From positions 1 to 64,000 of the IMG/VR virus record IMGVR_UViG_3300046476_000353: a DNA stretch of 64,000 nt. The stretch is one strand, 5' to 3'. How positions within the stretch are numbered: the first letter of the stretch is position 1; each line of letters begins with the position of its first letter. Made by a program: the position numbers and the translations under genes. The notes under the pieces were generated by a model. It was not told the DNA's origin. It did not search any database and saw only the letters and a list, made by a program, of their open reading frames with translations. Shown in pieces: positions 13,272 to 64,000 of this stretch. Source of the stretch: a virus.

Positions 13272-13272
13272 G

Positions 13273-14415
<1,143 letters not shown>

Positions 14416-14416
<1 letters not shown>

Positions 14417-25117: not shown

Positions 25118-25119
25118 GG

Positions 25120-29845: not shown

Positions 29846-29846
29846 C

Positions 29847-32478: not shown

Positions 32479-32531
32479 GGCAATTCGTAATTGCGCCGGA
32501 TATAGGGGGTGTTGGCAAATAGAATACTCAC
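32479..32531 (+). promoter_or_regulatory. AT-rich gap before an HNH gene
   Basis: A 53-base AT-rich stretch, odd in this GC-rich cassette. It holds the hairpin GCAATT CGT AATTGC near 32,484-32,498 and TAGAAT, a -10-like element, 7 bases before the ATG. It breaks the overlap pattern of the cassette and supports later insertion of the HNH gene with its own promoter. Confidence 0.5.
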
Positions 32532-49200: not shown

Positions 49201-49920
49201 TCAAGCCCTACCGAGGAGGCGGGCCGCGTGCTGCTCCGCCGTCGACTTCGGCTTCTCGACCGCGGCCGTCTTCGGCGCCCCGGTCGGGCGGGCCTTCGGC
49301 TTCGGCGTCGCCTGCGGCAGCAGCTCCGGGTAGTCGGCCTTCACCCGGTCCACCTCGGCCTCGGCGCCGATGAGGTCGCCGTCGTCGTCAACGCTGATGG
49401 CATCCCAGTCGATGAGCTTCATCAGCCGGTCCGGCGCAGAGAACCCGGCCTCGGCCAGCGCTGCCCGGACGCCGGACTTCTTCATCGGCTCCCGGAACCG
49501 ACGCTCCCCCTCCTCGCGGGCCTCGCGCAGGGCCTTCTCGTGGTCGGACTCGTTGGCGCGCCCCTGATCCTCCAACTCCTTGTTGCGGAGCCGGTGCCGC
49601 TTGGCGTCCTCGTTGGCCTTCTTCAACGCGGCCTGAGTGCGCGCCCACTCGCTCTGCGACGGAGCCTTGTACTCGTCTTCCTTCTTGGCCGGGGGCTTCG
49701 GCTTCGGCTTGTCGTCCGGCTCGGGCTCCGGTTCGGCCTCCGGCTCCGGGTCGTCGGCGGGCTCGGGCTCCGGCTCGTCGTCAACGACGATGTCCGGCTC
49801 GTCGTCCTCGGCGCCTCCGGCGATCACGTGGATCGGACGGCCGTCGGCCCGGTAGCCGAGCACCGTCCCGGGCGGCCGGCTGATCGTGGTGCGGTGGCGG
49901 GTGGTGGTGTGGATGCCCAT
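49201..49920 (-). CDS. scaffolding protein
   Basis: 239 residues, ATG 49920 with GGGAGAA. A very acidic Glu/Pro/Asp run (about 40-75, EPEPEPADDPEPEAEPEPEP) precedes a Lys/Ala coiled coil (about 85-145, ALKKANEDAKRHRLRNKELE), then a basic Pro-rich tail, the normal make-up of siphophage scaffolds. It guides assembly of the capsid gene product just downstream. Confidence 0.85.
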   Translation of the reverse strand: MGIHTTTRHRTTISRPPGTVLGYRADGRPIHVIAGGAEDDEPDIVVDDEPEPEPADDPEPEAEPEPEPDDKPKPKPPAKKEDEYKAPSQSEWARTQAALKKANEDAKRHRLRNKELEDQGRANESDHEKALREAREEGERRFREPMKKSGVRAALAEAGFSAPDRLMKLIDWDAISVDDDGDLIGAEAEVDRVKADYPELLPQATPKPKARPTGAPKTAAVEKPKSTAEQHAARLLGRA

Positions 49921-49971
49921 CTGTGTTCTCCCATCACGGGGTTGGCGGCGGCCCATCGTCGGGTGCCAGGT

Positions 49972-50988
49972 CTATGCGGCGGCTGGGAAGCGGCCGTTTC
50001 TGAGTGCGGTGCGCGCGGTGGTCTCGACCGCGGGGAGCAGGTCGTCGACGGTGCGCAGGAGTTCACGGGCGGCCCTCAGCCGGACGGCACGGGACTCCGA
50101 CGGGCGGGCCCGGCCGTAGCCGATAGCGCGCTCGGCCTCACGGCGCAGCGCCTCCGGGAACGGGATGCCGTCCGCCTTCCACGAGTCGCTCCACGGGACC
50201 ACCCGGCATCGGCAGTGCGGGTGCTTCGGCGGCCCGTCGATCGCGGGCACGGTCGTGCGTCGCTGCTTCGGATCCCAGGACAGACCGCCCGGGAACGGCT
50301 CGTCGATCTTGACGACGCGGCCGGTGTACGCCAGACACACCGCGCAGGCGTCCGCCTCGGCCACCCACACCCGCAGCGGCGCCGTCGCCTGCACGACCGC
50401 GTCCAAGCCCTCATGCACGGCGATGTTGACCACCCAGGCGATGTGCGCCCGCACCGCCGGCAGCGCTGCCCTGGCTGCGCCGAGCCCGGCCAGCAGGTGC
50501 GACCAGCGCGTCACCCGGTCCGGATGCAGCAGGTGCAGTGCCCGGTCACGGCGCTCGATGACCATGTCCCGGATCCGGTGCGCCTCGTCCCGCAACACCC
50601 GCCGCACGGCTGGCACCCGCGGGGCGCGGCGGCGCCGGCCGGACGCGGCGGTCACGAACGCGCTGCCCTGCTCGACGCCCATCGCCAGTGCGGGGGCGAG
50701 CTGGTCGGCGAGGGCGCCGGGTGCCCGGTCGGCGACACCGCCGAGGATGCGGCGGACCGTGGACTGTGCGGCATTGAGGATCCGGCGCAGCAGGTCGCCG
50801 GACAGGGCCTGGTGGTTGGGGCCGCCGAATGCTCGGGTCCAGGCCGTGAGCGTCGCCCGGATGAGGTCTTCGAATGCGCGGTCCGACCGGGCGAGCGCGC
50901 GGGTGGCGGCGCTGTTCTCCAGGTCGATGACCTCGCCGGTGTGCTCGTCCTGGACCAGATGCAGCAGGCGGTCGCTGGAGTACGGCAT
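49972..50988 (-). CDS. MuF-like minor head protein
   Basis: 338 residues, ATG 50988 overlapping the portal stop. The N-terminal 200 residues are helical; the C-terminal part carries ADACAVCLAYTGRVVKIDEP and the KHPHCRCRVVPW zinc/His motif of Mu F (Phage_Mu_F) proteins, which cap the portal vertex and in some phages carry maturation protease domains. The portal gene is upstream, as usual. Confidence 0.88.
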   Translation of the reverse strand: MPYSSDRLLHLVQDEHTGEVIDLENSAATRALARSDRAFEDLIRATLTAWTRAFGGPNHQALSGDLLRRILNAAQSTVRRILGGVADRAPGALADQLAPALAMGVEQGSAFVTAASGRRRRAPRVPAVRRVLRDEAHRIRDMVIERRDRALHLLHPDRVTRWSHLLAGLGAARAALPAVRAHIAWVVNIAVHEGLDAVVQATAPLRVWVAEADACAVCLAYTGRVVKIDEPFPGGLSWDPKQRRTTVPAIDGPPKHPHCRCRVVPWSDSWKADGIPFPEALRREAERAIGYGRARPSESRAVRLRAARELLRTVDDLLPAVETTARTALRNGRFPAAA

Positions 50989-52529
50989 CAGCGTTCCTCT
51001 TGCGCCTGCGCGAGCGCTTCGAGATCGTCGATCGTCCCGGACAGCAGCGCGGTGACCTGATCGCTGGTGATGACGCCGAGTGTGGCCGCGCTCCCGAGTT
51101 TCTGTGCGGAGTCAGCGAGCGAGGCGAGGACGTCAACGCGGCGCTGCAACTCGGAGTCGTCGACGCCGGCGAGCCAGGCGTCGACCTGCTCGGCGCGGTA
51201 GCCGGACTCCATGAGTGCCTGCCGCCTGGGGACACCAGCGTCGATCTTGGCCTTGACTGTCTGCCAGCCCTCCGCGGTCGACACGGACCGGGCAGGTACC
51301 CAGTCGACGGTGATCACCGGGTTGGCCACGCCGAGGCGGCGCAGCGCGAACACGAATGCCTCATGCACGGTCGCGCCGTAGGAGGTCTGGCGGTTCTCGA
51401 CCTTGCTGATGAACGGGCCGTCCTCCTCTTGGAAGGAGACCCCGGAGCGTTGGCGGCTGGACTGCGGGTCGAACATTCGCAGCGGCGTGTCGGTGATCTG
51501 GGCCATCGCCCGGATGTTGAAGTCCATCGGGGTGAGGAAGACGTTTGGTTGCGCCGCATCGAACTGCCCGACGGCTTTGAAGCCGCGGAGCAGCATCATC
51601 TCGCCGGGTCCGGCCTTCAGGCTGCTGTCCTCGCCCGAGTCCTTGGGGCCGAGGCCCTGTTCGGGGAACGGCCAGTCGTTGTCGGCGAAGTCCCCGGGTT
51701 CCAGATCGCTCGTGTCGGTGTTCGCGGTCTCGGTGAGCGCATACCGCTGCGGGAATCCCTGGTAGTCGACGGTGCCCATGTGCGTCTGTTGCAATTTATT
51801 GACGGCGTTCTGCGGGCCGTAGGCGCCGTAGTGCTCCGGCGTGCCGTATGGCCGGTCGGTGCGGAAGTGAAAGACCGGCTGCTCGCCCCAGTCGTGCTCG
51901 ATCGACCAGGACTCCGGGTCCTCGGAATCGGCCGGCCAGTGCATCCAGTCCTTGGCCTGCTCGCCGCGCGAGTTCGCTGCGGTCGTCCAGCGTTCGGTGC
52001 GGTCGTCGTAGTACAGCTCGGCCCGCTGGTACTTGCCCTCACACCATCGCTTGATCGTGAATGCCTTGCGGCGCGGATTGTCCTCGCTATAGATCACCCG
52101 CACCGTCTGCGGCGAGTTGTAGAACATTTCGACCCGCACGACCTTGCCGGCCTCGTCCTCGACGGGCAGGACCATCAGGTAGGCGTCGCCGTACTCGCCG
52201 GCCCGGCGGAAGGTGTCGGGCATCTCCAGGTTGAGCTGGTTGTCTTGCCAGATCTGGGAGATGAGGGCGGTCACGTCCGGGTCGGGGCTGGTGATGGCGG
52301 CGATCTTCAGCCGGTTGGTGACCGCGTTGACGGGGGTCTTGGCGAAGTTGAGGTCGAAGTCGATGCCGTGGACGGCGAGCGCGCGGCGGATGCGGGTGCT
52401 GGTGAAGACCTCGGGGACCTTGCCGTCGTAGTACATCGCGGCCTGGTCGTAGGCGGGGCGGGCCTCGGTCAGCTCTCCGATCCCGTACATGAGGTCGGCG
52501 CGCGCCATGTCTTCCAATGCGACCCCCAT
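50988..52529 (-). CDS. portal protein
   Basis: 513 residues from ATG 52529; an ATG at 52508 with a better GGAAG site would remove 7 residues. The pattern fits siphophage portals (SPP1/HK97 type): TPVNAVTNRLKIAAI early, FYNSPQTVRVIYSEDNPRRKA in the wing, and MDFNIRAMAQITDTPLRMF with VSFQEEDGPFISKVENRQ in the stem/crown helices. Its promoter region carries the 13-bp CTTTGAATCGAAG motif. Confidence 0.9.
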   Translation of the reverse strand: MGVALEDMARADLMYGIGELTEARPAYDQAAMYYDGKVPEVFTSTRIRRALAVHGIDFDLNFAKTPVNAVTNRLKIAAITSPDPDVTALISQIWQDNQLNLEMPDTFRRAGEYGDAYLMVLPVEDEAGKVVRVEMFYNSPQTVRVIYSEDNPRRKAFTIKRWCEGKYQRAELYYDDRTERWTTAANSRGEQAKDWMHWPADSEDPESWSIEHDWGEQPVFHFRTDRPYGTPEHYGAYGPQNAVNKLQQTHMGTVDYQGFPQRYALTETANTDTSDLEPGDFADNDWPFPEQGLGPKDSGEDSSLKAGPGEMMLLRGFKAVGQFDAAQPNVFLTPMDFNIRAMAQITDTPLRMFDPQSSRQRSGVSFQEEDGPFISKVENRQTSYGATVHEAFVFALRRLGVANPVITVDWVPARSVSTAEGWQTVKAKIDAGVPRRQALMESGYRAEQVDAWLAGVDDSELQRRVDVLASLADSAQKLGSAATLGVITSDQVTALLSGTIDDLEALAQAQEER

Positions 52530-52532
52530 ACT

Positions 52533-52551
52533 CGACCTTTGAATCGAAGGA
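52533..52551 (-). promoter_or_regulatory. repeated regulatory motif upstream of the portal gene
   Basis: CGACCTTTGAATCGAAGGA lies 4 bases before the portal start. Eighteen of 19 bases match a copy upstream of the small terminase gene (54,802-54,820), and its core CTTTGA A TCGAAG is nearly palindromic. A third, perfectly palindromic relative, CTACGAATCGTAG, is at 26,046. Confidence 0.7.
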
Positions 52552-52613
52552 TAGACGGTCACGCAAGTCGCTGTAACTATCACGCCACTATGCCTGGACG
52601 CTAGAAACGAAGG

Positions 52614-54161
52614 TCAGACGTAGCCCGCGCTCACCGCACTCGGCGGCGCCTGCTTCTTCACTGCCGGGATGAACCGCCGCACGGCACTGCCGACGGCATC
52701 GACCATGTCGTCGTTTGGGCCCTTCGGGAACGTGCACATCTGCTGCTCCAAATCCGGCAGCTTCCGCGCATGCAGCACCCGGCCGCGCTCGTAGTGGGCC
52801 AGCACGCCCTCAGCGCGGACGAACTTGTTCTCTGACTGCGACACCGTCTTCACCTTCACCGGCATGTCGTGGAGGATCGCCTGCCAGGTGTCGCCCCCTT
52901 GGTTCACCTCGATCAGGATCAGCCCGATCCGCGGGAACTCGTCGAGCAGTGCAAGGACCCGGTCACGGAGTTCGGGGCCCGGCCGGACCTTCAGGGCCAG
53001 AGCTGCGTGCACGGTGCAACGTTGGCGCTGCGTCGACCACGCCACCACGGCCAGCCCGGTGAAGTCGCTGCTCTTCTTGGCGGTGGTCGCCGGGTCGATG
53101 CTCAGCATCATGTGCGTCACCGGGTCGGCGCCGGCCTCGTCCGGGTAGCGGAAGTCTTCCGGCGTCCACAGCGCCCCGTCCGCGGCGAGTGGATCGTTCG
53201 CCATGTTCTTCGCGTAGCTGCGGGTGTGCCGGATCTCCAGCAGGTAGCCGATCGGCCACTTCCCCGGCCACATCGACCGCTCCGTACCGTCCGCCCGCTC
53301 CACGATCGGCAGACTGTGATGCGCCCGGACGCCTTCCTCGCGGATCCACTCCTCGGCATGCACGCCCTTCGCCGCCCGGACCAGCTGGTGGATGATGCTG
53401 CCCGGCATGGTGACGGTCCCGCAGATCACCACCCGCGCGTAGATGTTCAGCGGGAGGATCGCGTCGATCAGCGTCGTCCGGCGCTTCGCGGCGAGGGCCG
53501 CAGAGTAGCTGCTCTCATCTGGCTCGATATCGTCGAGGAGCAGCAGGTCAGGGCGCTTCTCCTCGACCTTCATGCCGAGGCTGGAGCTGTCGATCCCGCG
53601 GGCCGCGAAGATCAGCCCGGACTTGGCGACGTACATGTTCTGCGTGTCGGCGACACTCGCTCCGGACGGGCGCTTGGCCGGCGCGCACAGGTCGGGGAAG
53701 TCGCGGCGCAGCAGAGGGTTGTTGTCGATCTCCCGCTTGAACGTGGCCAGATGCGTCTCCGCCTGCGTGGCGGACGCAGCGAACGCGGCAGCGAACTGGA
53801 TGTGCCCGTGCGCGGCCGCCCACATCGGCAGCAGGAGAAACCACCACGTGCTCTTGCCAGTGTTGCGAGGCGCGATGTACGCGTCCCGCTCGGCAGCCGG
53901 TTCGGTCGGTGGGCGGACCCAGCGGCGGCCGGCGCGGCACCAGTCGAGGTGGGCGTCGCCGAACGTGATCCGGCCTTCGGTGTCTTTGAGGTGGTGGCGG
54001 AGGTAGACGAGGGCGAAGAGCAGGGGGTCGAGGCGGGTGAGGGTGCGTCGGCCTTCGGGGTCGGCGAGGAGGCGTTCGTCGAACTGGGCGAGGTAGGCGT
54101 GGAGGTTGAAGGTCTCGGCGTCGAGGCCGTCGAGGTAGCCGGTGCGGGTTGCCGTCGTCAC
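52614..54161 (-). CDS. terminase large subunit
   Basis: 515 residues from the GTG at 54161, chosen because the upstream frame is the shadow of the small-subunit gene. Walker A is APRNTGKSTW near 130, Walker B is DLLLLDDIEPDE near 225, and the nuclease acidic residues lie in MLSIDPATTAKKSSDFTG near 375 and NDDMVDAVG near the C-terminus. It powers packaging and cuts the concatemer. Portal and capsid genes follow directly. Confidence 0.95.
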   Translation of the reverse strand: MTTATRTGYLDGLDAETFNLHAYLAQFDERLLADPEGRRTLTRLDPLLFALVYLRHHLKDTEGRITFGDAHLDWCRAGRRWVRPPTEPAAERDAYIAPRNTGKSTWWFLLLPMWAAAHGHIQFAAAFAASATQAETHLATFKREIDNNPLLRRDFPDLCAPAKRPSGASVADTQNMYVAKSGLIFAARGIDSSSLGMKVEEKRPDLLLLDDIEPDESSYSAALAAKRRTTLIDAILPLNIYARVVICGTVTMPGSIIHQLVRAAKGVHAEEWIREEGVRAHHSLPIVERADGTERSMWPGKWPIGYLLEIRHTRSYAKNMANDPLAADGALWTPEDFRYPDEAGADPVTHMMLSIDPATTAKKSSDFTGLAVVAWSTQRQRCTVHAALALKVRPGPELRDRVLALLDEFPRIGLILIEVNQGGDTWQAILHDMPVKVKTVSQSENKFVRAEGVLAHYERGRVLHARKLPDLEQQMCTFPKGPNDDMVDAVGSAVRRFIPAVKKQAPPSAVSAGYV

Positions 54162-54162
54162 G

Positions 54163-54768
54163 TCAGCCGTCGCTGCTCGCGCCGTCCCGCAGTGCCTGCT
54201 CTTCCAGGCTGGTGCGGGCCTTCGCCTCGCGCAGCATCTCCTGGAGTTCGAGGTCCTGCTGGGTGACCTCGGTGACTTGTGCGTCGACCTTGGTGGGTGC
54301 GTCGAGGCCGAGCAACTTGCGCTGCGATTCGTTGTTGCGGCGCCGCGCGTCTTCGATCTTGATGAGGCGGTCGATGGCCTGGAGGACGGGCCCGTCATCG
54401 AGGAGCGGTTCACCGTCGACGGAGATGATCCGTCCGTTGTTGACGGTGATGTGATGTCGGGTGAGGACTTGGCGGGCGTGCTGCTCCAGGTCGTCGAGGC
54501 GCAGCAGTTCGGCTTCGAGGCGTTCGAGGTGCAGGATCCGGTAGGCGTCGACCTTGGGGTCAACGCGCCTGGCCAGCTCTTCCTTCAGCAGGTCGCGGGC
54601 TGTGGTCCACGGGATGCGGACGCCGCCGGTCGGCCCGTCGGGTGCGGCGGTGATCGCGTCGATGGCTCGGAAGGTATGGCCGGCGAGCTTGAGGTCGAAG
54701 ACGATCCGGGCTTTCTCGGCCTTCTCGGCCCGGTTGGCGCCCTTGTATGGGCCGGGTCCGCCTGCCAT
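54163..54768 (-). CDS. terminase small subunit
   Basis: 201 residues; ATG 54768 has a strong GAGGAGG site and begins MAGGPGPYKGANRAEKAEK. An N-terminal helix-turn-helix-like region (FDLKLAGHTFRAIDAITAAP) would recognise the packaging site. A long coiled coil with acidic heptads (about 95-165) gives the ring, and the C-terminal QQDLELQEMLREAKAR touches the large subunit. Confidence 0.85.
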   Translation of the reverse strand: MAGGPGPYKGANRAEKAEKARIVFDLKLAGHTFRAIDAITAAPDGPTGGVRIPWTTARDLLKEELARRVDPKVDAYRILHLERLEAELLRLDDLEQHARQVLTRHHITVNNGRIISVDGEPLLDDGPVLQAIDRLIKIEDARRRNNESQRKLLGLDAPTKVDAQVTEVTQQDLELQEMLREAKARTSLEEQALRDGASSDG

Positions 54769-54801
54769 GTCTGCCTCCTCGTCCTCGCACTTCACGGCCT
54801 G

Positions 54802-54820
54802 CGACCTTTGAATCGTAGGA
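54802..54820 (-). promoter_or_regulatory. repeated regulatory motif upstream of the terminase genes
   Basis: CGACCTTTGAATCGTAGGA, 34 bases before the small terminase start, is the partner of the motif at 52,533. The matching position upstream of late genes suggests a shared activator or repressor site for the late operon. Confidence 0.7.
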
Positions 54821-54906
54821 CACATGCGCCAATCGGTCGCGGATCATGGGCTCGATCCGGTCGGGCGGGTGCATCATTGAAGGCATCCCGGCCAGAGGGG
54901 GCAGTC

Positions 54907-55104
54907 ATGGTCAGCGACCGAGGGGGCCGCGCAGGCTTCGTGTACCGCACGCGCTTCGCGGTGTACCGCGCACTGCGCCGACAGGGTGCCTCGAAGTCGA
55001 AGGCCGCGCAGATCTCGAACGCCGGCCGGACCTTCCCCCAGCGCAGCATGATGGCCCGGAAGGCAGCGAAGACCAGGCAGGCGCGGGGGCGCAAGAACCG
55101 CTGA
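54907..55104 (+). CDS. small basic protein, DUF7218-like
   Basis: 65 residues, ATG 54907 with a GAGGGGG site. It is very basic (RRQGASKSKAAQISNAG, ending ARGRKNR) and is divergent from the small terminase gene. KSKAAQISNAG resembles small Rho-N-like or DUF7218 proteins common in actinobacteria. Probably binds nucleic acid. Confidence 0.7.
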   Translation: MVSDRGGRAGFVYRTRFAVYRALRRQGASKSKAAQISNAGRTFPQRSMMARKAAKTRQARGRKNR

Positions 55105-55115
55105 GGCGGCGGCGA

Positions 55116-55150
55116 GAAGCCCCGGGACTGGACGGCGGTCCCGGGGCTTC
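55116..55150. terminator. bidirectional terminator
   Basis: A perfect 13-bp stem (GAAGCCCCGGGAC) with a 9-base loop lies between convergent genes (54,907-55,104 and the PASTA gene). Confidence 0.75.
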
Positions 55151-55156
55151 GGCGCG

Positions 55157-55813
55157 TCAGGAGCAGGATTCCTCGAACTTCACCGCGTTCAACGTCACCG
55201 GCTGTCCGGTCAGCTTCGCCCCCGCCGCGGGCTTTTGGGAGCACACCTTCCAGTTCGACTCCACCAGCACGAACCGGCTGTCCCCCGTCGCATCGTTGAC
55301 GGTGATCGACGTGCCGGAGTCCAGTGCCGCACGCGCGACCTTCACTGCCTTGCCTGCGAAGTTCGGCATCGTCGACCCTGCGGCGGCCGGCGCAGCCTGG
55401 TCTGTGGCCGGGCAGGTCTCGTCGAGTTTGACCGCGCCGAAGTCCAGCTTCGTGTCGGCCGGGACCGCCTTGCCTGCGGCGGGCTTCTGGGAGCAGACCT
55501 TCCAGTCGCGGTCGAGGATCTGCATGCGGCCGCGGCCGAGGGAGTCGTGGCTGTCGAGCCCATAGAAGCCGGCTGCCTGCGCTTTGTCCTGTGCGGACTG
55601 GAGGCCCATGCCGGCGAAGTTGGGGATCGGCTTTGTCTCGGTGTCTGCCTTCTTCGCGTCGCCGCTGTCGGCTGAGGCTGGGGCGCCGACGGCCGGGGTG
55701 GTGGCGGTGCCTGCCGTCGGGGTCTTGTCGTGGTTGGCGCCGACGGCGTTGCCGATGGCGCCGAGGATGAGTACGCCGCCTGCGAGGCCGCCGATGAGTT
55801 TCCAGTTGGCCAT
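55157..55813 (-). CDS. membrane-anchored protein with two PASTA domains
   Basis: 218 residues, ATG 55813. A short cytoplasmic part and membrane helix (about 6-26) are followed by a Thr/Pro/Ala linker, then two PASTA-like repeats: IPNFAGMGLQSAQDKAQAAG ... WKVCSQKPAAG and MPNFAGKAVKVARAALDSGT ... WKVCSQKPAAG. PASTA domains bind peptidoglycan in kinases and penicillin-binding proteins. A phage-borne PASTA protein could alter host wall signalling or exclude other phages; such proteins are also known in Streptomyces mobile elements. Confidence 0.82.
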   Translation of the reverse strand: MANWKLIGGLAGGVLILGAIGNAVGANHDKTPTAGTATTPAVGAPASADSGDAKKADTETKPIPNFAGMGLQSAQDKAQAAGFYGLDSHDSLGRGRMQILDRDWKVCSQKPAAGKAVPADTKLDFGAVKLDETCPATDQAAPAAAGSTMPNFAGKAVKVARAALDSGTSITVNDATGDSRFVLVESNWKVCSQKPAAGAKLTGQPVTLNAVKFEESCS

Positions 55814-55925
55814 GGTTCCCCCTGGGTTGTGCGGGTTGTGGTGGTCGGTGAGAGTACGGAGGGGGATGGTGGCGCGTGGGGTGTGTGACGGGGTTGTGAC
55901 ACGAACGGGTGGCGGGCGCGCGACG

Positions 55926-55958
55926 GAGGGGCTCGACCGGGTGGCGGTCGAGCCCCTC
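55926..55958 (-). terminator. terminator after the gene at 55976
   Basis: A perfect 13-bp stem (GAGGGGCTCGACC) with a 7-base loop, 18 bases past the stop of the leftward gene at 55,976-56,326. Confidence 0.75.
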
Positions 55959-55975
55959 AGCTGTACGGGATGCGG

Positions 55976-56326
55976 TCAGCGGATACGGCGGACCGGTTCG
56001 GCGGACCGACCGCTCCAACCGGTGAAGCTCGCGCTGCGGCAGCCGGCCGCGTACTCCTCCAGCTCCGGGAGCACCTGCGCCCACAGCTGCGCGGCCCGGC
56101 CTTTACGCTCGGCGAGCTGCGCCTCACCGCCGCCCACGACGATCTCGTGGCCTTCGTTGGCCAGGGTGTAGGTCTCGTTGTACAGCTCCCCGAACGGCTG
56201 GACTCCGACGATGGAGATGTGGTGGTCGAAGCCGTCGGCACCCCCTTCGGTCTCGGGGTTGTCGGTCCAGGCATCGCGGGCTCGGGCGATGATGCGGGCG
56301 GCGGCGGTCTCGGTCATGGCGGTCAT
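55976..56326 (-). CDS. hypothetical protein
   Basis: 116 residues from ATG 56326 (ATG 56317 also possible). It is acidic with a Trp/Leu-rich helix near 75-95 and a short basic C-terminus. FDHHISIVGVQPFGELYNET is its most distinctive stretch. No family recognised. Own terminator downstream. Confidence 0.65.
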   Translation of the reverse strand: MTAMTETAAARIIARARDAWTDNPETEGGADGFDHHISIVGVQPFGELYNETYTLANEGHEIVVGGGEAQLAERKGRAAQLWAQVLPELEEYAAGCRSASFTGWSGRSAEPVRRIR

Positions 56327-56436
56327 CCTGTCGTAGTCGGGTGGACGCGGTGGGGCGAATCGGCCAAGCGGCGAGGAGCTGGACGCGGTGGGCGATAGGG
56401 CAGTCGACGGGGTACAGCACAGCCGCGGTGGCGAGG

Positions 56437-56456
56437 CCCGGCCCCGAAGGGCCGGG
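56437..56456 (-). terminator. hairpin downstream of the gene at 56466
   Basis: CCCGGCC and GGCCGGG with a 6-base loop, 10 bases after the stop. A short but GC-rich terminator candidate. Confidence 0.6.
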
Positions 56457-56465
56457 TGGGGTGGG

Positions 56466-56816
56466 TCAGCGCTCGGAGTTCAGATACTCGTCGCTGTGGC
56501 CGAACACGGTCGAGGCGCGGAAGGTCTGTTTCGCCGCACTCTCCAGGGCCTGGCTCGCGTCGAACAGAGCGTCCATGCGTACCCGGTTCGGTGTCCCGTC
56601 GGATGCGGGGAGGAGCTCCGCCATAGGGGCCTGAAGTGCCATCCCTCCGTGTTCGGTGACGTGCTTGATCTGCGCGATGAACCCGGTCCAGTAGCCGCGG
56701 TTGTGGGTGTCCTGGTCGGCCGCCGTTTGGAGGGCGTGGACGAAGGCGTCGGCGGCGTCGGTGAGGTTCTCGATCGCGTTGAGGGCTTCGGTTGAGACCT
56801 TCTGCTTGTCGGTCAT
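56466..56816 (-). CDS. hypothetical helical protein
   Basis: 116 residues, ATG 56816. The sequence is largely helical with Ala/Glu/Gln heptads (ALNAIENLTDAADAFVHALQ), with a central TGFIAQIKHVTEHGGMALQ. Could be a small structural or regulatory protein; no family found. Confidence 0.65.
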   Translation of the reverse strand: MTDKQKVSTEALNAIENLTDAADAFVHALQTAADQDTHNRGYWTGFIAQIKHVTEHGGMALQAPMAELLPASDGTPNRVRMDALFDASQALESAAKQTFRASTVFGHSDEYLNSER

Positions 56817-56876
56817 GGCGGTCTCCTTGCGGGTCTGGCTGCGGGTCTGGTTCGTCTGCTGCGCCGTGAAGTTGGT

Positions 56877-57608
56877 TCAGGCGCCGTCCTTGCGGTCTCG
56901 CTCGGCCTTCTTGCGCGCCTGGTACTCGCGGGAACTTCTCGCCGTGCACGTGCGGCAGACCCGTTGACCACGGCAATACCTGGTGTTGGCCTCGTCGTAC
57001 GGGTGGCCATGCGGGCAATGGGTCCTGTCCCCAGGCAGCGGAAGGACCGCTCGCCCTTCCTGCTCCGCCCTCTCCCGTCGCTGACGCCTGTCCAGCTCGC
57101 GGTGACACTGGTAGCAGGCCCGGCCACCGCTCGGGCGCACGTAGAGCGCATCGCCCTCCAGCTCGTGACCGTTGACGCACGTCGCCCTCTTCGCGTGCTC
57201 GGCGGCCCAGGACAAGCTGGTCAGCACGTTGTCGCGCGGGGTTACGGGCTTCAAGTGTGACGGGTTGGCGCACCGCCGGTGGAGGCACTCCTCCCCGCCC
57301 GCGCACTCCTGACGCTTGATCGCTTCGGTGTGGCAGGCATGGTCAAGGTGCATGCCGTCAGGGATCGTGCCGACAAAGGCCAGGTACGAGAAACGGTGAG
57401 TATTCACGCCGATGCCCTGGATCTTGGTCATTCCGTACTTGGTGGGAGCGAGATACCCCGTCCAGTGCCAGCAACCGTTGTCCGCGACTTCGAGCTTGGC
57501 CGCGAAGACCTGAAGGCGCTTTGCGGTGATCGTCCGCTGTCGGCCATTGGCGAAGGTGATCGTCGTAGGGGTCCAGCTGTCGAGCAGTTTTTGAATCGCA
57601 GGATGCAT
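56877..57608 (-). CDS. HNH endonuclease
   Basis: 243 residues, ATG 57608. The nuclease core is CWHWTGYLAPTKYGMTKIQG, then HLDHACHTEAIKRQECAGGE with DH and later CLHRRCANPSHLKPVTPRDN, an HNH_3-type signature; two more zinc elements follow (CYQCHRELDRRQRR and CPHGHPYDEANTRYC). The composition is a little less GC-rich than its neighbours and its ends abut unrelated genes, so a homing-type element is likely. HNH genes beside terminases may also help packaging. Confidence 0.88.
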   Translation of the reverse strand: MHPAIQKLLDSWTPTTITFANGRQRTITAKRLQVFAAKLEVADNGCWHWTGYLAPTKYGMTKIQGIGVNTHRFSYLAFVGTIPDGMHLDHACHTEAIKRQECAGGEECLHRRCANPSHLKPVTPRDNVLTSLSWAAEHAKRATCVNGHELEGDALYVRPSGGRACYQCHRELDRRQRRERAEQEGRAVLPLPGDRTHCPHGHPYDEANTRYCRGQRVCRTCTARSSREYQARKKAERDRKDGA

Positions 57609-57620
57609 CTTGTTCCTTCG

Positions 57621-57968
57621 TCAGGCGGCGAGCAGTAGGCGGGCGGCGAGTTGGTGGTAGCAGCGGCTGCCCTTGAGGCCAGCCGGGCAGTTACAGCCGG
57701 TGGGTGCGGTGCGGTAGGTCTCGGTCCCGTCGGTGGAGACGGCGATGAAGACGACGCTGCGGAGGGGGACGATCGCGCCGTCTTCGATCAGCTCGCGGGC
57801 CGACTGGATCTGGTGGGCCTTGTAGTCGGTGGTGTCGACGGTCTGCGCGGCGCGGCGGACCTTGGCGGCGCAGACCCTTCCCCGGCCGGCGGCGATCGAC
57901 TTGGCGGAGGTGAGCTTGCGGCCGCAGCCGAGGCAGTGGGCCTGCTGGGTGGTGGCTGCGGCGGTCAT
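57621..57968 (-). CDS. DUF6011-like/SWIM-like zinc protein
   Basis: 115 residues; ATG 57968 with GGGAG. CLGCGRKLTSAKSIAAGRG (C-x2-C then Cys33) matches DUF6011 zinc proteins of actinobacterial plasmids and phages. The C-terminal CNCPAGLKGSRCYHQ is a SWIM-type C-x-C-xn-C-x-H motif. Divergent from the HTH gene at 58083 across an operator array. Probably binds DNA or RNA. Confidence 0.78.
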   Translation of the reverse strand: MTAAATTQQAHCLGCGRKLTSAKSIAAGRGRVCAAKVRRAAQTVDTTDYKAHQIQSARELIEDGAIVPLRSVVFIAVSTDGTETYRTAPTGCNCPAGLKGSRCYHQLAARLLLAA

Positions 57969-58007
57969 GTGGTGCTCCCTCGTTCGTGGTGATGTCTCCA
58001 CTATGAG

Positions 58008-58069
58008 GCCTACGCGTAGCCCTGTCAATAGGGCTACGCGTAGCTCTTCCTGTAGGGCTACCCGTCGCG
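58008..58069. promoter_or_regulatory. 24-bp-spaced repeat array
   Basis: Three units with core CTACGCGTAG (perfect palindrome) at 58,010 and 58,034, and CTACCCGTCG (degenerate) at 58,058. The spacing is exactly 24 bases, so they lie on one DNA face. GGGC precedes copies two and three. TAGAGT just before the HTH gene may be a -10 element. Probable operators for the HTH protein at 58083, or plasmid iterons. Confidence 0.65.
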
Positions 58070-58082
58070 CTAGAGTGAGAGC

Positions 58083-58364
58083 ATGCCCAAGGACTACGCA
58101 CCCCCCCGAGACGACGCCGATACGTTCGCCCGCTACAAGACCGCCTACGAGGACGAGCGCACGCTGAAGCCCGAGATGCTGGAGTCCGCCGACCGCGCGC
58201 TGAAGGCCGGCGCCACCGTCGGCCAGCTCGCAGCCTGGACCGGGCTCACCCCCGAGGTGTTCCGCCGCCGCGCCCGCGCGCTCGGGGTGGAGCGGAAGAG
58301 GCCGCCGACCGTAGGCAAGCTCGCCCCGGAGCGCCCGGTGAGCAGCGAGGGGAACAACGCATGA
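58083..58364 (+). CDS. small helix-turn-helix regulator
   Basis: 93 residues, ATG 58083. The HTH covers about 42-75: ADRALKAGATVGQLAAWTGL, then TPEVFRRRARALGVERKR. It faces the DUF6011-like gene across the CTACGCGTAG array, so it probably binds those sites. The layout is the same as at 7.8 kb. First of three overlapping rightward genes. Confidence 0.75.
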   Translation: MPKDYAPPRDDADTFARYKTAYEDERTLKPEMLESADRALKAGATVGQLAAWTGLTPEVFRRRARALGVERKRPPTVGKLAPERPVSSEGNNA

Positions 58365-58669
58365 GCGAGATCGTGCAGCAGCTCACCAGCCAGCAGGTCA
58401 ACGATCTACGCCGCCAGTTCGATGAGCGCGCCGCCAAGGGGCTCGGCACCGTCCTGCGCGGCCTGCCTGCCCCACCGCTGCCTCGCTGTCCCGCCTGCGC
58501 CGCTGAAGCCGAGCGCGTCGACCAGCGGGTGGAGGACCCGAAGTTCGAGTTCGGTGCCGACGAGCGGGAGGTGCGCATGCGGTGGCTGCCGTGTGGTCAC
58601 CGGTTCCGCGCGGTCATCGAGCTCCTGGACGTGGGTCTGGTGCGCCCGGGTGAGGAGCCCACCACATGA
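58361..58669 (+). CDS. zinc-site protein
   Basis: 102 residues, ATG 58361 overlapping the upstream stop (ATGA). CPACAAEAERVDQRVEDPKF and CGHRFRAV give a C-x2-C ... C-x-H pattern. Coiled-coil-like N-terminus (LTSQQVNDLRRQFDERAAKG). Unknown function. Confidence 0.65.
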   Translation: MSEIVQQLTSQQVNDLRRQFDERAAKGLGTVLRGLPAPPLPRCPACAAEAERVDQRVEDPKFEFGADEREVRMRWLPCGHRFRAVIELLDVGLVRPGEEPTT

Positions 58670-58863
58670 GCGCTGACCTTGCCGAGATCCTCGCCCGCGA
58701 ACTGGGTGACGCCGACGCAGCACGCGATGCCCTACGCGACCGGCTCGACCGCGCCAACCGGGCCCTGATCCAAGTCCTGTACATCGCCGAGGTGATCGAC
58801 GCGAACGGCATCAAGTGGGCAGCCGACTCGGTGCGAGCGGCTGTACGTACAGCCGTCGAGTAG
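58666..58863 (+). CDS. small helical protein
   Basis: 65 residues, ATG 58666 overlapping the upstream stop. Highly helical (LAEILARELGDADAARDALR). Last gene of the three-gene rightward operon; followed by a terminator. Unknown function. Confidence 0.6.
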   Translation: MSADLAEILARELGDADAARDALRDRLDRANRALIQVLYIAEVIDANGIKWAADSVRAAVRTAVE

Positions 58864-58878
58864 CCCGCTGCGTGACGG

Positions 58879-58908
58879 AGGCCCCGCCCTATCTCGGGAG
58901 CGGGGCCT
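58879..58908. terminator. terminator between convergent genes
   Basis: AGGCCCCG and CGGGGCCT with a 14-base loop, 16 bases after the rightward stop and 15 bases before the leftward lipoprotein stop. Confidence 0.65.
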
Positions 58909-58922
58909 TGCTGCGTCCTCGG

Positions 58923-59288
58923 TCAGGACCCGTTGCTCTCCCGCAGCGTCAGATACCCGGCCGCCACATCCTCACAGCGCATCCTCGATCCCGCCGGGGT
59001 CGCATCCTTCAGATGCGCGAGCACCGTGTACTCGGTCTCGTCGTTCACCCCGTTCTTCTGGAGATCGTCCAACGCCGCATACGTGTACCCGGCCAGTTTC
59101 TCCGGGCTCTCTGTGCACCGGGCTGCCCACGCGTCGAGCGCTGTCTGATACTCGGCGACGCTGTGTGTACCGCCGTCGAGATCGGCGAGCTTCTGCGCCG
59201 GGCTGGACGGGGTCGGTGTCGCGCCCGAGGAGCAGCCGGCGAGCAGCAGTCCGGCGGTGAGTAGTAGTGCGGTGGTGGTGTGGCGCAT
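58923..59288 (-). CDS. lipoprotein
   Basis: 121 residues, ATG 59288. The signal peptide (about 1-18) ends in a lipobox, LLAGCSS, for lipid attachment at Cys19. The mature part is Thr/Ser/Pro-rich at first, then helical, with two more Cys. It is downstream of the translocase in the same direction, so it may be a surface-exclusion or transfer-associated lipoprotein. Family not recognised. Confidence 0.75.
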   Translation of the reverse strand: MRHTTTALLLTAGLLLAGCSSGATPTPSSPAQKLADLDGGTHSVAEYQTALDAWAARCTESPEKLAGYTYAALDDLQKNGVNDETEYTVLAHLKDATPAGSRMRCEDVAAGYLTLRESNGS

Positions 59289-59477
59289 GGTCCCCCCAAG
59301 GCGGTGTGTGGCGGGGATGCTAGCGCCGGCCACCGACAGGGGCGCCCGGAATGCGGGGAGCAGCCACCCGAACGGGGTCCCCAACCGGGTCCAACGCGGC
59401 GCCCGCGACGGGACCCTGACACGGCAACGCGGGGACCCCGAACGGGACCCCCGCGAAATACTGCCTGGCCTGCGCTT

Positions 59478-61241
59478 TCACCCGTCCAGGGAGACAGATA
59501 CCGCCTGCGTCTCCCACGCGCTCTGAGGGACCAGACGCCACGTCCCCGCGTCCGTCCGCTCCACGTCCGGCTTCAGCCCGTCGAGGGCCCTCAGCACCTG
59601 CCGCTCCTCCAGCCCGGTCGCCTGCTCCAACTCCCGGCGAGTCACGTTGCCGTACTTGGCCAGCGCGTTGCGGACCTTCTCCTGCTGCGTACCGCCGGCC
59701 GCGGGGAGGATGAGCCGCTTCCCCACCGGGGCTTTCGCCGTCTCCCGGGCCAGGCGGGCGACCTCGCGGCGGAAGTCCTCGCCGCGCAGCCACTGCACCC
59801 GGGAGCGGAACGGCCGGGAGTGGTCGGGGGTGTTGACGAGGATCTCGCCGGGCTTGGTGAGGTCGCCGGGGTTGTAGCCGCTCGCCCTGCCGAACACGAA
59901 CTGGGCGTGCATGCGGTCGTTCATGCGGGTGCTGATCCGGTTGGCGTAGTTGCCGCGCGCGTCCGTCTTCCCGCCGAACACTCCGGACGACGGTTGCTGC
60001 GTCGCGGAGATCATGTGGATGCCATACGCCCTGTTCAGCGCGAGGAACGACTCCACCTTGTCGCTGATCCGCTCGCCCTTCTTCCGCCCCTTGTCGCCTT
60101 GGCGGACCAGCTCGGCGTGCTCGTCGACGATGACGTACACCGCGGGCCGGCCGTGCCGGGCGGGGATCCACTCCTGCGCCTTGTCTGCGGCGAGGATCGC
60201 GCCGCGCTCGTCCAGCTCCTGCCGCATCCAGTCCATCAGCGCGTGCGCCTCCTCCGGGGTGGACGCCAGGTCTTGCAGGATCGGCCGCATCGGGGAGAGT
60301 TCGGGGCTGCCGGGCTTCATGTCGACCCCGTACAGGACAGTGTCCGGACGCCCGGCGAGGCGGATGGCGAGCAGCCTGACCAGCGTCGATTTCCCGAACT
60401 TGCTGGATCCGGCGATCAGGGTGTGGCTGTACGCCATCTCGATCGCGACGGGCTGTCCGAACTCATCCCGGGACACGACGACCGGGTCGAGGAACGTGGC
60501 GCCGCGCTCCGACTCATACGGGACCGCCGCGTCGAGGGGGTCGCCGTCGACGTAGTTCACCACCAACTGACTGGTCAGCGGCCCGTCGTCGAGGTGGAAC
60601 GCCCCGTCCACCCGCATCGCCCCGGCGACCTTCGGCCAGCGGGTACGCAGGGTGGCCCGGTCGAGGGTGGCCGGGCAGTCGATGAGCGCACGCCACCCGA
60701 CGTCGGTTGCCTCGATCAGGCAGCCGGCCAGCTCCGCCTTCAACGCCTCCCACACCGCGGTGCGGAGCTGCTGCTCCTCGACGGTGCGTCCGGACAGATC
60801 CGGACCCGGCTGGACAGTGTCCGGGACGGTGAGCTTGGCGAGCTGCTGCTGCCGGATCTGCTGCCCGACGAGCGCCGTCTGCAGCTTCACGGCCTCCATG
60901 TTCAGCTTCATGTCGTCGTGGCGGGTGTGGTGTCGGTACGCCCCGCGGGCGGCGCCTGCGATGAGCACAGAGACCAGCCACGAGTAGAGCGCCTGCCCGG
61001 TGCCGAGCCCGGTGATCGTGGCCTGAGCGAACGCGGCTGCTGCTGCGCCCGCACCCCAGGAGAGGGACGGGGACCACTTCCTGCCGAAGCTGACCAGGCT
61101 CAACTTGCCCGTGGCGACGGCGGCGATGAACTCGACGGTGACGGCGTTGCTGCCGTACCGGGCTTCGGCGATGAGGGCGGCGCCGGTGACGATGCTGGGG
61201 GCGATGAGGCTGGTGGCGAGGTCTGCGGCGGTGAGCTTCAC
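59478..61241 (-). CDS. FtsK/SpoIIIE-type DNA translocase of plasmid-transfer (TraB) type
   Basis: 587 residues, ATG 61241. Two or three N-terminal membrane helices (about 12-30, 62-98) are followed by a cytoplasmic motor: Walker A GSSKFGKST (278-286), Walker B VIVDEHAEL (about 370-378), and AYGIHMISATQQPSSGVFGG as the sensor region. The C-terminal 70 residues form a winged helix (ALAKYGNVTRRELEQATGLE) that would read DNA sequence repeats. In Streptomyces, such proteins (TraB, TraSA) move double-stranded DNA between hyphae. It is not a typical siphophage gene. Confidence 0.9.
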   Translation of the reverse strand: MKLTAADLATSLIAPSIVTGAALIAEARYGSNAVTVEFIAAVATGKLSLVSFGRKWSPSLSWGAGAAAAAFAQATITGLGTGQALYSWLVSVLIAGAARGAYRHHTRHDDMKLNMEAVKLQTALVGQQIRQQQLAKLTVPDTVQPGPDLSGRTVEEQQLRTAVWEALKAELAGCLIEATDVGWRALIDCPATLDRATLRTRWPKVAGAMRVDGAFHLDDGPLTSQLVVNYVDGDPLDAAVPYESERGATFLDPVVVSRDEFGQPVAIEMAYSHTLIAGSSKFGKSTLVRLLAIRLAGRPDTVLYGVDMKPGSPELSPMRPILQDLASTPEEAHALMDWMRQELDERGAILAADKAQEWIPARHGRPAVYVIVDEHAELVRQGDKGRKKGERISDKVESFLALNRAYGIHMISATQQPSSGVFGGKTDARGNYANRISTRMNDRMHAQFVFGRASGYNPGDLTKPGEILVNTPDHSRPFRSRVQWLRGEDFRREVARLARETAKAPVGKRLILPAAGGTQQEKVRNALAKYGNVTRRELEQATGLEERQVLRALDGLKPDVERTDAGTWRLVPQSAWETQAVSVSLDG

Positions 61242-61297
61242 GGTGGCTCCGTAGACGGCTCGGCCCCCGCTGGTGGGCGGGGGCCAGGGCGGGCGGC

Positions 61298-62260
61298 TTA
61301 CTTGGCCTGGCGGACTTCGCGGAGGTAGCGCTTCGCGGTGGCGGCGCTGACGTCGAGCTCCTCGGCGACCTGTCCGGAGGTGATCCCGGGGTCGGCCTTG
61401 AGGAGCTCAGCGACCTGAGCCACGGCCTTGATGCGCTGAGCCTGCTGGGCGCTGAGGTGAGCCGAGAAGCCGAAGTTCCCGACCTTGAGCGCAGCGGCTT
61501 GGACCGCCGGTTCAGGCGGGGCGACCTGCGGCGATGCGGCGCTGAGCCCACCCCCGGCGATGGAGGGATCAGCGGAACTGAGCCCCGGCTCAGAGAGGCT
61601 GATCTCAGGCTCAGCAGCATGCTCCTGCTCGACCATCGCGGGTTCCGGGCGTCGGGCCTCCAGCGCGAGCAGGAGACGGGCGGTGCGGTCGCCGGTGAGG
61701 AGCCGGTCGCGTTCCCCGAGCGCCAACGCCTGCTCGGTCCCGGCCTGCTGCTGCCGGGCGCGGAGGTACGCCTCGTACTTCGGGCCGAGCTTGATCCGGA
61801 TGGTGTACATCGCGACGGCCCACATGCCCTTGGCTGCGGCGGAGACGAGGGCGCCGATGATCCCGACCGCGACGGCGTGGTTGCGGTGGCCGTCGATGAT
61901 GATCGCTGCCATCGAGACGGCGAGCATCGCGACGCCGACGCCAGCCGGGATCCGGGCGCGGGCGCGGTCGTAGCGCAGGACCCATTCGGCGATGAGGCAG
62001 CCGGCCCATCCGGCGTCGAAGACCCCGGCGACGAGGTAGGCGCCCCAGGCGGGGGCGAGGAGGGTGAGCATGCTGCCGATAGCGACGGTGCCCCAGACGA
62101 TGGCGCCTGCGGTCATGAGGATGGCAATGGCGAAGAGGACACGGCGGAGTGCGGCGTCGAGGTTGAACGGCAGCCGGATGTCGGGGATGTCGTAGGCGAC
62201 GTCGATGCCGTGGACGGTTTCGGTGATGCGGCGGGTGGGCCGGCGGAAGGGGGCGGGCAT
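61298..62260 (-). CDS. Spd/SpdB-like membrane protein with C-terminal HTH
   Basis: 320 residues, ATG 62260. Four membrane segments lie at about 42-60, 68-86, 111-128 and 132-148. A charged, Pro-rich middle leads to a C-terminal helix-turn-helix (ITSGQVAEELDVSAATAKRY). Intramycelial spread proteins of Streptomyces conjugative plasmids sit next to tra genes and have this kind of topology; DUF2637-type proteins are also similar. The family assignment is by layout and position. Confidence 0.72.
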   Translation of the reverse strand: MPAPFRRPTRRITETVHGIDVAYDIPDIRLPFNLDAALRRVLFAIAILMTAGAIVWGTVAIGSMLTLLAPAWGAYLVAGVFDAGWAGCLIAEWVLRYDRARARIPAGVGVAMLAVSMAAIIIDGHRNHAVAVGIIGALVSAAAKGMWAVAMYTIRIKLGPKYEAYLRARQQQAGTEQALALGERDRLLTGDRTARLLLALEARRPEPAMVEQEHAAEPEISLSEPGLSSADPSIAGGGLSAASPQVAPPEPAVQAAALKVGNFGFSAHLSAQQAQRIKAVAQVAELLKADPGITSGQVAEELDVSAATAKRYLREVRQAK

Positions 62261-62285
62261 GACGGTGGCCTCCGGGGTGGCGGGG

Positions 62286-62531
62286 TCAGTGGCGTGCGCG
62301 GGCGTGGGGCTGGTGGGTGCGGATCTGGTGGGCGACGTACACGGCGCCGGCGAGGAGGGCGGCTGCTCCGGGGTGGGCGACCACGCCGTCGGCGATGCCC
62401 TGCACCACGGCGAGGACCAGGCCGACGGCGAGGGTGGCGAGTTGGCGGGTGGCGTGCTGGTTCATGGCGGCGAGGATGATCAGGCTGGCGATGAGCAGGT
62501 TGCGGAGCAGGTGGGTGGGGTGGCGTCGCAT
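62286..62531 (-). CDS. small membrane protein, Spd-like
   Basis: 81 residues, ATG 62531 with GAGGAG. Three hydrophobic segments (about 8-22, 31-48 and 55-68) and basic ends. It follows the transfer gene set in the usual order of small spread (spd) genes on Streptomyces plasmids. Confidence 0.65.
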   Translation of the reverse strand: MRRHPTHLLRNLLIASLIILAAMNQHATRQLATLAVGLVLAVVQGIADGVVAHPGAAALLAGAVYVAHQIRTHQPHARARH

Positions 62532-62604
62532 CGGTGCTCCTCGGGTCGGGTGGCTGATCGGATCTCCAGGGCCCACGTGCGGGACGTGGGCCGTGGGCTA
62601 CCGG

Positions 62605-62769
62605 TCAGCGGCTGTCGGCGCTGTGGGTTCCGTTGCTGTGTGCGTGGTCGTTCCAGAAGCGGGCGGAGCGTTCTTCGCTGGCGCGTTCCGCGGCCTGGAG
62701 GTCGTCGGCGAGGTTGGCGCGGGCTTGCTCGGTGCTCTCGGGGCTGGGCATCTTGCTGAACAGGCCCAT
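62605..62769 (-). CDS. small hydrophilic protein
   Basis: 54 residues, ATG 62769 with GAGGAG. Helical and charged (STEQARANLADDLQAAERAS), beginning MGLFSKMPSP. Unknown; part of the transfer gene group. Confidence 0.65.
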   Translation of the reverse strand: MGLFSKMPSPESTEQARANLADDLQAAERASEERSARFWNDHAHSNGTHSADSR

Positions 62770-62771
62770 GG

Positions 62772-62864
62772 CTACTTCTCCTCGTCGGGGTTGTCGGCGG
62801 CTTCGCAGGCGGGGCCGCAGTACGGCGCGCCGCCGGGGGCGCCGCATAGGAGGCACTCGTTCAT
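62772..62864 (-). CDS. 30-residue zinc-ribbon microprotein
   Basis: ATG 62864 to TAG 62772. MNECLLCGAPGGAPYCGPAC is a complete C-x2-C ... C-x3-C ribbon, followed by an acidic tail. Lies 2 bases before the next start. Very short, but the motif is too well formed for chance. Confidence 0.6.
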   Translation of the reverse strand: MNECLLCGAPGGAPYCGPACEAADNPDEEK

Positions 62865-62953
62865 GGCTGTCAGCTCTCGTCGTTTCGGTGGTGGTGGAAG
62901 GGGTGCCGTCTCCCCGGCCGGGGGAGGGTCGAGGGGAGGCGGCGGTCAGGGGG

Positions 62954-63121
62954 TCAGGTGAGGTCGATGCGGGTGGCCGTCTTCCGGCCGGGCAGCTTGC
63001 GGACCTCGTCCTGGATCGCGGCCTTGGCCTGGACGTCGTCGGCCTCAGTGGTGGTGCCGGTCGCGGTGGTGATCTCGCCGGTGCGGTGGTCGCGGACCGT
63101 GGCGGCGAAGAAGCGCTTCAC
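62954..63121 (-). CDS. small hypothetical protein
   Basis: 55 residues from the GTG at 63121 with a GGAGGG site. FFAATVRDHRTGEITTATGT is beta-rich, and the end is basic. Unknown plasmid-type protein. Confidence 0.65.
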   Translation of the reverse strand: MKRFFAATVRDHRTGEITTATGTTTEADDVQAKAAIQDEVRKLPGRKTATRIDLT

Positions 63122-63170
63122 GGGGTGCCCTCCTGTGGGTTTTCGGTGGCGGTGTGGGTGCGGTGTCGGC

Positions 63171-63404
63171 TCAGGGGGTGGGCCCGGCGAGGTGGCGGAG
63201 CTGGGTGGCGTACTCCGAGTGGTGGGTGCCGTCGGGGGCGGGGAGGAAGGTCAGCCAGTCCTCGTCGAGGCCGAGAGCGCGGCCGTGGCCGCGGATGGTG
63301 TGGAGGTCGGCGGGCTGGTTGGGCTTCAGGTCGAGGTGGTCGGCGAGGCGGTTGAACAGGGCGTGGACGCCGGTGTGAGTGGCGGGGGTGGGCTGCTCGC
63401 TCAT
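63171..63404 (-). CDS. small hypothetical protein
   Basis: 77 residues, ATG 63404 overlapping the upstream stop (ATGA). Has ALFNRLADHLDLKPNQPADL, helical with a Pro-rich start. No known family. Confidence 0.65.
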   Translation of the reverse strand: MSEQPTPATHTGVHALFNRLADHLDLKPNQPADLHTIRGHGRALGLDEDWLTFLPAPDGTHHSEYATQLRHLAGPTP

Positions 63405-63679
63405 GCCTGCACCGCCGGTCGGGGCAGGGCGCGGCAGCGCTCGGCGTGGGCTTGGGCGTCGGGCTGGAGCGCGGGGACAGCGGTGGCGATCTTCTCGTCG
63501 CGCTCCTCGGCGGAGTCGGTGTAGAAGACGCGGGTCGACTTGTGCACGGTCCAGGAGCAGGTCTCGCCGCTGCACCGGGTGCGGAGGGTGCCGGTGTCGT
63601 ACCAGATGTCGACGTGGGCGCCGCCGATGGTCAGGTAGCGGGCGATGGTGTCCGGGTCCCAGGGCTGCTGCTCGCTCAT
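63401..63679 (-). CDS. hypothetical protein with C-x4-C motif
   Basis: 92 residues, ATG 63679. VDIWYDTGTLRTRCSGETCS is beta-rich with a Cys pair, followed by a helical end. Overlaps both neighbours by 4 bases. Confidence 0.65.
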   Translation of the reverse strand: MSEQQPWDPDTIARYLTIGGAHVDIWYDTGTLRTRCSGETCSWTVHKSTRVFYTDSAEERDEKIATAVPALQPDAQAHAERCRALPRPAVQA

Positions 63680-63873
63680 GCGTTCACCCCGGCGAGGTTC
63701 TGGTCGGCGAGCTTCCACAGCTCCTTGGCGCGCCGCTCGTCGCCGGCCTGCTCGGCGTCGTTGGCGGCGAGGGCGTAGAGGGCGGCGGCGTCTCGGGTGA
63801 GCTGGTCGGCCTCGGCGAGCACGTCCACGCTGGGGGTGGGCTGCCGGTGGGGCTGGCCGTTACGATCGGTCAC
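63676..63873 (-). CDS. small helical protein
   Basis: 65 residues from the GTG at 63873, chosen for the AGGAGA site; a longer frame has no site. Helical with Ala/Asp/Glu (VLAEADQLTRDAAALYALAA). First visible gene of the rightmost leftward operon. Confidence 0.65.
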   Translation of the reverse strand: MTDRNGQPHRQPTPSVDVLAEADQLTRDAAALYALAANDAEQAGDERRAKELWKLADQNLAGVNA

Positions 63874-64000
63874 GGTCGTTTCTCCTGGTGAGTCAGGGGA
63901 TGCGGCTTGCCTCAGCGGGAGGTGCGAACTTCCGCTGGGGCTCAATGCATTGGTGGCGGAGGGCAGTGGCGCACCATCCGTTGTATGGGGACCGTACAGC
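63874..64000 (-). promoter_or_regulatory. upstream region of the rightmost operon
   Basis: The 127 bases before the first gene hold no open frame I can support. A near-perfect inverted repeat (CAGCGGGAG and CTTCCGCTG) lies near 63,916-63,940. Promoter for the leftward operon is probable here, but the region is cut by the window end. Confidence 0.4.

Follow-up and report, generated by a model that had tools for sequence, protein, structure and literature searches.

Why would a phage carry, next to its virion genes, a DNA translocase of the kind used by conjugative plasmids, and what would that translocase recognize? The locus in question lies in IMG/VR virus record IMGVR_UViG_3300046476_000353, of which bases 1–64,000 of 66,974 bp (the window) were analyzed. 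It comprises ftsK (59478–61241), encoding an FtsK/TraB-type translocase, an spdB-like gene and a small gene upstream (together, the cassette), carried by a temperate siphophage. Annotations of FtsK-like genes in phages usually give no function. The original prediction had likened this gene group to the transfer genes of Streptomyces plasmids. By comparison of 34 related loci, we show that the recognition helix of the translocase and a cluster of short repeats 3′ of its gene change together and have been exchanged many times.

The translocase consists of N-terminal hydrophobic helices, the motor and a C-terminal winged helix with the recognition helix ERQVLRALDGL (class A, see below). A search for clt-type repeats near the translocase gene had been recommended, and such a cluster was found within ∼150 bp past the ftsK stop. 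Three direct GGGTCCC copies on the minus strand (59444–59450, 59432–59438 and 59410–59416) are followed by two inverted copies (59386–59392 and 59375–59381), and in the window record, as in loci G002 and G003, the densest motif cluster of the whole record sits 3′ of ftsK. The usual layout, seen in most loci, is two direct repeats ∼12–13 bp apart, a third ∼20–30 bp further and inverted copies beyond; within one class the repeats align across loci and the spacers do not. Other repeats, at about −1.2 kb and −0.3 kb from ftsK, are inside coding sequence.

Relatives were collected from viral contigs (6), from bacterial genomes (8) and by profile (43), and were reduced to 34 distinct close loci. Their recognition helices fell into six classes with one repeat motif per class: QVL[KR]A[IL][ED]GL (class A) with GGTCCC, QVLDAARAL with GGTCGG, QVRDAAGAL with GGTGGA, QVLRALQ[GA]L with GGTCTC, QVLRACQEM with GGTGCG, and QVLRALREL with GGTCGC. 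The own-class motif was uniquely best in 31 of the 34 loci. In the four classes represented by more than one locus, own-motif copies numbered 105, and 10,000 permutations of the labels yielded at most 72, a test that is not fully blind because the motifs were assigned after the sequences had been inspected; classes E and F, with one member each, carry little weight alone. At least three motif copies were present in 25 of 32 downstream windows vs. 12 of 7241 windows elsewhere. A class-blind motif search recovered the class motif, or one overlapping it, in most loci, and did so more clearly in classes B, D, E and F than in some loci of classes A and C. Streptomyces plasmid TraB reads 8-bp clt repeats via the same recognition helix of its winged helix (PMC3583192). 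Because the repeat motif covaries with the recognition helix, these data strongly, if indirectly, suggest that the phage translocase, like plasmid TraB, recognizes a transfer site in cis.

In a tree built from the remainder of the protein, the class labels were scattered (B, 10 changes; A, 8), with at least eight changes forced by well-supported branches, and the number of class changes was close to that of shuffled labels. Motor similarity was equal for same-class (0.803) and different-class (0.798) pairs, and recognition-helix similarity was 0.916 and 0.524, respectively. The motors of L120 and L168, for example, are 96% identical, and these loci differ in both helix and repeats. The breaks were located just upstream of the recognition helix, and none was observed between helix and repeats. 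With the class labels scattered on the motor tree and at least eight switches forced, the sequences indicate that helix and repeats switch together.

A GCAGGTCA-like element is present at 59458–59478 of the window, after the ftsK stop, and in nearly all loci whatever their repeat class. GIY-YIG (MUG113/T5orf172) proteins with a translocase-like winged helix adjoin the repeats in L011 (3919–4614, minus strand), L122 (11886–12605, plus strand), L156 and L009 (6327–7688, plus strand); these are possibly site-directed nucleases or regulators. In G003, a GIY-YIG domain is located inside the SpdB-like protein.

How close, then, is the translocase to plasmid Tra proteins? The predicted motor and winged helix were both recovered, and the Walker A motif, GSSKFGKS, is at residue 278. 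When 13 relatives were combined into a profile, it aligned to pIJ101 Tra from this motif up to and including the winged helix (hhalign E 1.2e-11). A Foldseek search with the full-length AlphaFold model, which is confident in the motor and the winged helix only, matched structures of FtsK motors (best, 4.4e-14) as well as TcpA, a conjugation ATPase. In a motor tree, the window translocase and its relatives formed a supported clade (97/92) whose sister group comprises phage Gilgamesh and three plasmids of 130 kb (joint clade 97/95). A grouping with host FtsK, which would have refuted the original prediction, was not seen: host FtsK paired with mycobacteriophage Lucky2013 (99/99), apart from the window clade. 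The TraSA-type motors of actinomycete integrative and conjugative elements (AICEs) were also placed elsewhere.

The predicted four-pass membrane/helix-turn-helix (HTH) protein proved to have a hydrophobic region resembling four transmembrane helices at residues 30–147 and an HTH at its C-terminus. Its profile aligned to annotated plasmid SpdB over 134 columns, and the protein is 29% identical to pIJ101 SpdB over 134 aa, so that by sequence it is kin of pIJ101-type SpdB. DUF2637, another multi-pass plasmid protein, served as a negative control and was rejected as a relative (E 0.57). Wherever enough upstream sequence was available, the spdB-like gene immediately precedes ftsK, with a weak match in two loci. 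The HTH of the SpdB-like protein was considered as the repeat reader and rejected, since G000 and G003 have this HTH in common and differ in their repeats. Small genes had also been expected nearby, and one for a 96-aa membrane-like protein without a Pfam match is conserved upstream.

The cassette is linked to phage genes beyond the window. Terminase was present in all 29 IMG/VR virus records tested, in two terminase profile families, and within 10 kb in seven of the eight bacterial-genome loci, which are prophages; the exception is L123. (In L123, a 758-aa open reading frame (ORF) at 12562–14838, plus strand, reads as a serine recombinase fused to an IS4/5-type DUF4096 domain.) The translocase/SpdB-like pair was found on at least two unrelated packaging backbones: G002 and G003 have the cassette in common (90% and 84%) and an unrelated virion module. 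Because G007, a close relative, shares the virion genes (terminase large subunit, TerL, 85% identical) and has no cassette, the cassette is accessory. The repeats as a trait of all relatives with this terminase were rejected, G007 being without such a cluster. With a strict cut-off, the cassette was detected in 2 of 393 Streptomyces genomes. An assembly error at the virion–translocase join, a concern raised at the outset, is excluded because a separate 40-kb record is 99–100% identical across the join and a related arrangement is found inside a 10.3-Mb S. stelliscabiei chromosome contig.

Sequence comparison thus establishes the parts, their linkage to phage genes and the helix–repeat covariation. 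What might they do? Plasmid TraB forms hexameric pores and moves double-stranded DNA (dsDNA) (PMC3583192; PMC3218068), and SpdB2 binds DNA and TraB and promotes spread (PMC4170104). Since the phage has the same part set as Streptomyces plasmids, we favor transfer or spread of phage dsDNA, and consider it probable that the accessory TraB-kind cassette of this temperate Streptomyces siphophage moves phage dsDNA between hyphal compartments or hyphae. From this likeness we infer binding, ring assembly, pumping, its direction and its benefit as follows. The translocase would be seated in the membrane, and its C-terminal winged helix would load it as a ring on the clt-like site formed by the short repeats that lie 3′ of ftsK. 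It would then pump double-stranded phage DNA over the hyphal membrane to a neighboring compartment or hypha, with the SpdB-like membrane protein assisting passage. The phage could thereby spread within a mycelium, or among touching mycelia, without lysis and in addition to virions, and helix and repeats would act as a switchable address type keeping co-resident elements apart. The wider proposal, that a group of temperate Streptomyces phages spreads both via virions and by TraB-like mycelial transfer, with an exchangeable helix–repeat address of at least six types, swapped often, as a natural dsDNA-conjugation code, we regard as evenly balanced between true and false.

Several results weigh against transfer. 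The window translocase is not nested in any proven conjugative Tra/TraB clade of the motor tree. Its predicted N-terminal membrane helices are modest in hydropathy (two 19-aa windows at 1.53–1.56), and the long helices there fall in the low-confidence part of the model. Helix and repeats are ∼100–200 bp apart, and this physical linkage may add to their co-switching. The repeats are degenerate in G004 and in two class C loci, and a scan of a few neighbors turned up no kor/kil regulator.

The strongest rival is that the translocase acts within the mycelium only, carrying DNA of the phage or prophage across septa or into spores, with no strain-to-strain transfer. Spread within the mycelium and plasmid stability have both been linked to SpdB proteins (PMC4170104), and the isolated phages YDN12 and Xkcd426 have a Tra-like FtsK, whose benefit would be spread during infection. 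However, a swappable address site is most useful when several elements compete for transfer, and plasmids with these parts also transfer between strains; we therefore judge the intramycelial limit rather unlikely. A role in replication, concatemer handling or packaging, with the repeats as the loading site, is improbable. The cassette does lie upstream of the terminase operon, in the same orientation, in most loci, and the authors of the Geonosis report propose a replication function for its FtsK-like protein (PMC11536984); but G007 combines this virion module with no cassette, the repeats keep to ftsK rather than to a fixed distance from the terminase, and an SpdB partner is unexpected for packaging. 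Least probable of the three is an operator or terminator function of the repeats, with the winged helix as a regulator and the co-switching as immunity-type divergence. GIY-YIG proteins that have a related winged helix are next to the repeats of L011 and L156, but the site follows the gene on its 3′ side, a terminator would not change with a protein helix, and the repeat class is not tied to the SpdB HTH.

If transfer of phage dsDNA does take place, prophages in a filamentous host could move without particles and may mobilize the chromosome. The parts that define dsDNA conjugation in Streptomyces are united in one phage clade, among them a cis site whose sequence varies with the putative reading helix, and 34 natural helix–repeat pairs bring TraB–clt specificity, a question posed for elements that transfer together (PMC9513070), within reach of direct tests.

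The transfer loci of pIJ101, pSVH1 and pWTY27 (TraB or TraA, clt, Spd) resemble the phage cassette in their FtsK-type motor with a C-terminal winged helix, an SpdB-like partner and clustered short direct and inverted repeats adjoining tra. In contrast, the phage cassette is carried by integrase-bearing temperate siphophages, its translocase forms a separate clade and its repeat sequences are others; the gene order is small gene-spdB-tra rather than the tra-spdA-spdB of pIJ101. AICEs of the pSAM2 type likewise combine an integrase, a replication initiator and an FtsK-type Tra in one integrating element, but here a full siphophage virion gene set is present. Of the AICE combination of integrase, RepSA/RepAM/Prim-Pol and Tra, an integrase and a Tra-like protein were identified in the window.

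A Streptomyces plasmid-phage precedent had been invoked, and it holds for the hybrid class: pZL12 (and pSLE1) is a single element that unites phage genes with a tra locus on which transfer depends (PMC3583192), and pZL12 shows that the two can coexist (PMC3583192; PMC4487206). It probably does not hold for this element. The window has rep and ParB-like genes, but also a serine integrase, and its relatives are integrated prophages in bacterial genome contigs, whereas pZL12 is a theta-type plasmid. The hybrid class being already known via pZL12, the new finding is the helix–repeat covariation beside a phage translocase; no report of a clt-like site or of such covariation in phages was found in the literature searched.

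Gilgamesh and the 130-kb elements, circular or linear, share the sister translocase clade, and in Gilgamesh the translocase also lies upstream of the terminase. Their translocases, however, are ∼29–31% identical, and no obvious repeats were seen directly 3′ of ftsK in them, in G018 or in the 33%-identical group. The three ∼130-kb Streptomyces 'plasmids' L005, L136 and L137 (NZ_CP108441, NZ_CP122459 and NZ_CP070374) have an FtsK of the Gilgamesh clade and, because their terminase is 77–78% identical to that of Gilgamesh, are by sequence unlabelled phage-plasmids. The Woodruffvirus phages YDN12, Xkcd426 and TP1604 carry a Tra-like FtsK as well, but of another clade near plasmid Tra, and with the gene at the right genome end. 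The FtsK proteins of YDN12 and Xkcd426 (L135 and L141), TP1604, BayC and Geonosis are 43–46% identical to pIJ101 Tra over ∼80% of its length, and that of YDN12 nests with a plasmid Tra.

The element itself is a temperate siphophage, with a serine integrase, an endolysin and terminase-to-tail genes (Table 1). The genes looked for in a Caudoviricetes siphophage (terminase, portal, capsid, tape measure, integrase and endolysin) were all found, and the predicted complete structural operon is borne out at key-gene level, with head morphogenesis, scaffold and minor tail genes also present. The translocase had been placed directly beside the terminase, which is incorrect: ∼4.6 kb of small genes, an HNH endonuclease among them, separate it from the probable terminase small subunit (TerS). 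Since TerS probably occupies 54163–54825, the TerL ORF is probably over-long at its 5′ end, with the true start near 54160.

Table 1. Coordinates of the cassette and of phage genes in the window.
Feature	Coordinates	Strand	Evidence
FtsK/TraB-type translocase, 587 aa	59478..61241	-	PF01580 5.8e-14; phrog_1358 4.7e-26; hhalign pIJ101 Tra; Foldseek
clt-like repeat cluster	59375..59450	-	GGGTCCC, 3 direct and 2 inverted; densest GGTCCC cluster in record
SpdB-like protein, 320 aa	61298..62260	-	hhalign to annotated plasmid SpdB 1.7e-7; BLASTP to pIJ101 SpdB 8e-5
Small membrane-like protein, 96 aa	62286..62576	-	60-89% identity in relatives; two hydrophobic stretches
TerS, probable	54163..54825	-	67.6% over 204 aa to L120 protein just upstream of TerL; position
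TerL	52614..54563	-	phrog_38 2e-71; L120 homologue 516 aa, 88%
Portal	50988..52583	-	phrog_104 2.7e-52; PF05133
Head morphogenesis protein	49972..50988	-	phrog_241 2.7e-8
Head scaffold	49201..49956	-	phrog_194 4.5e-10
Major capsid protein	48152..49066	-	phrog_10 6.8e-15
Tape measure protein	39665..44257	-	phrog_4197 2.4e-163
Minor tail protein	35577..38450	-	phrog_11445 5.4e-22
Endolysin	24254..25153	-	phrog_17214 7.8e-74
Serine integrase	18157..19797	+	phrog_95 1.2e-78
ParB-like protein	5004..6590	-	phrog_4715 2.6e-9
Replication initiation protein	3969..4931	-	phrog_2447 1e-38

The window also codes for a WhiB-like regulator, an Erf annealing protein and a RecE-like exonuclease. Its TerL is 38% identical to the TerL of satellite phage MiniFlayer and 44% to that of Mulchroom. 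At 26124–33916, a phrog_4285 'transposase' and its neighbor adjoin a nucleotide-sugar epimerase/glycosyltransferase gene cluster, which is kept in G004 and G007.

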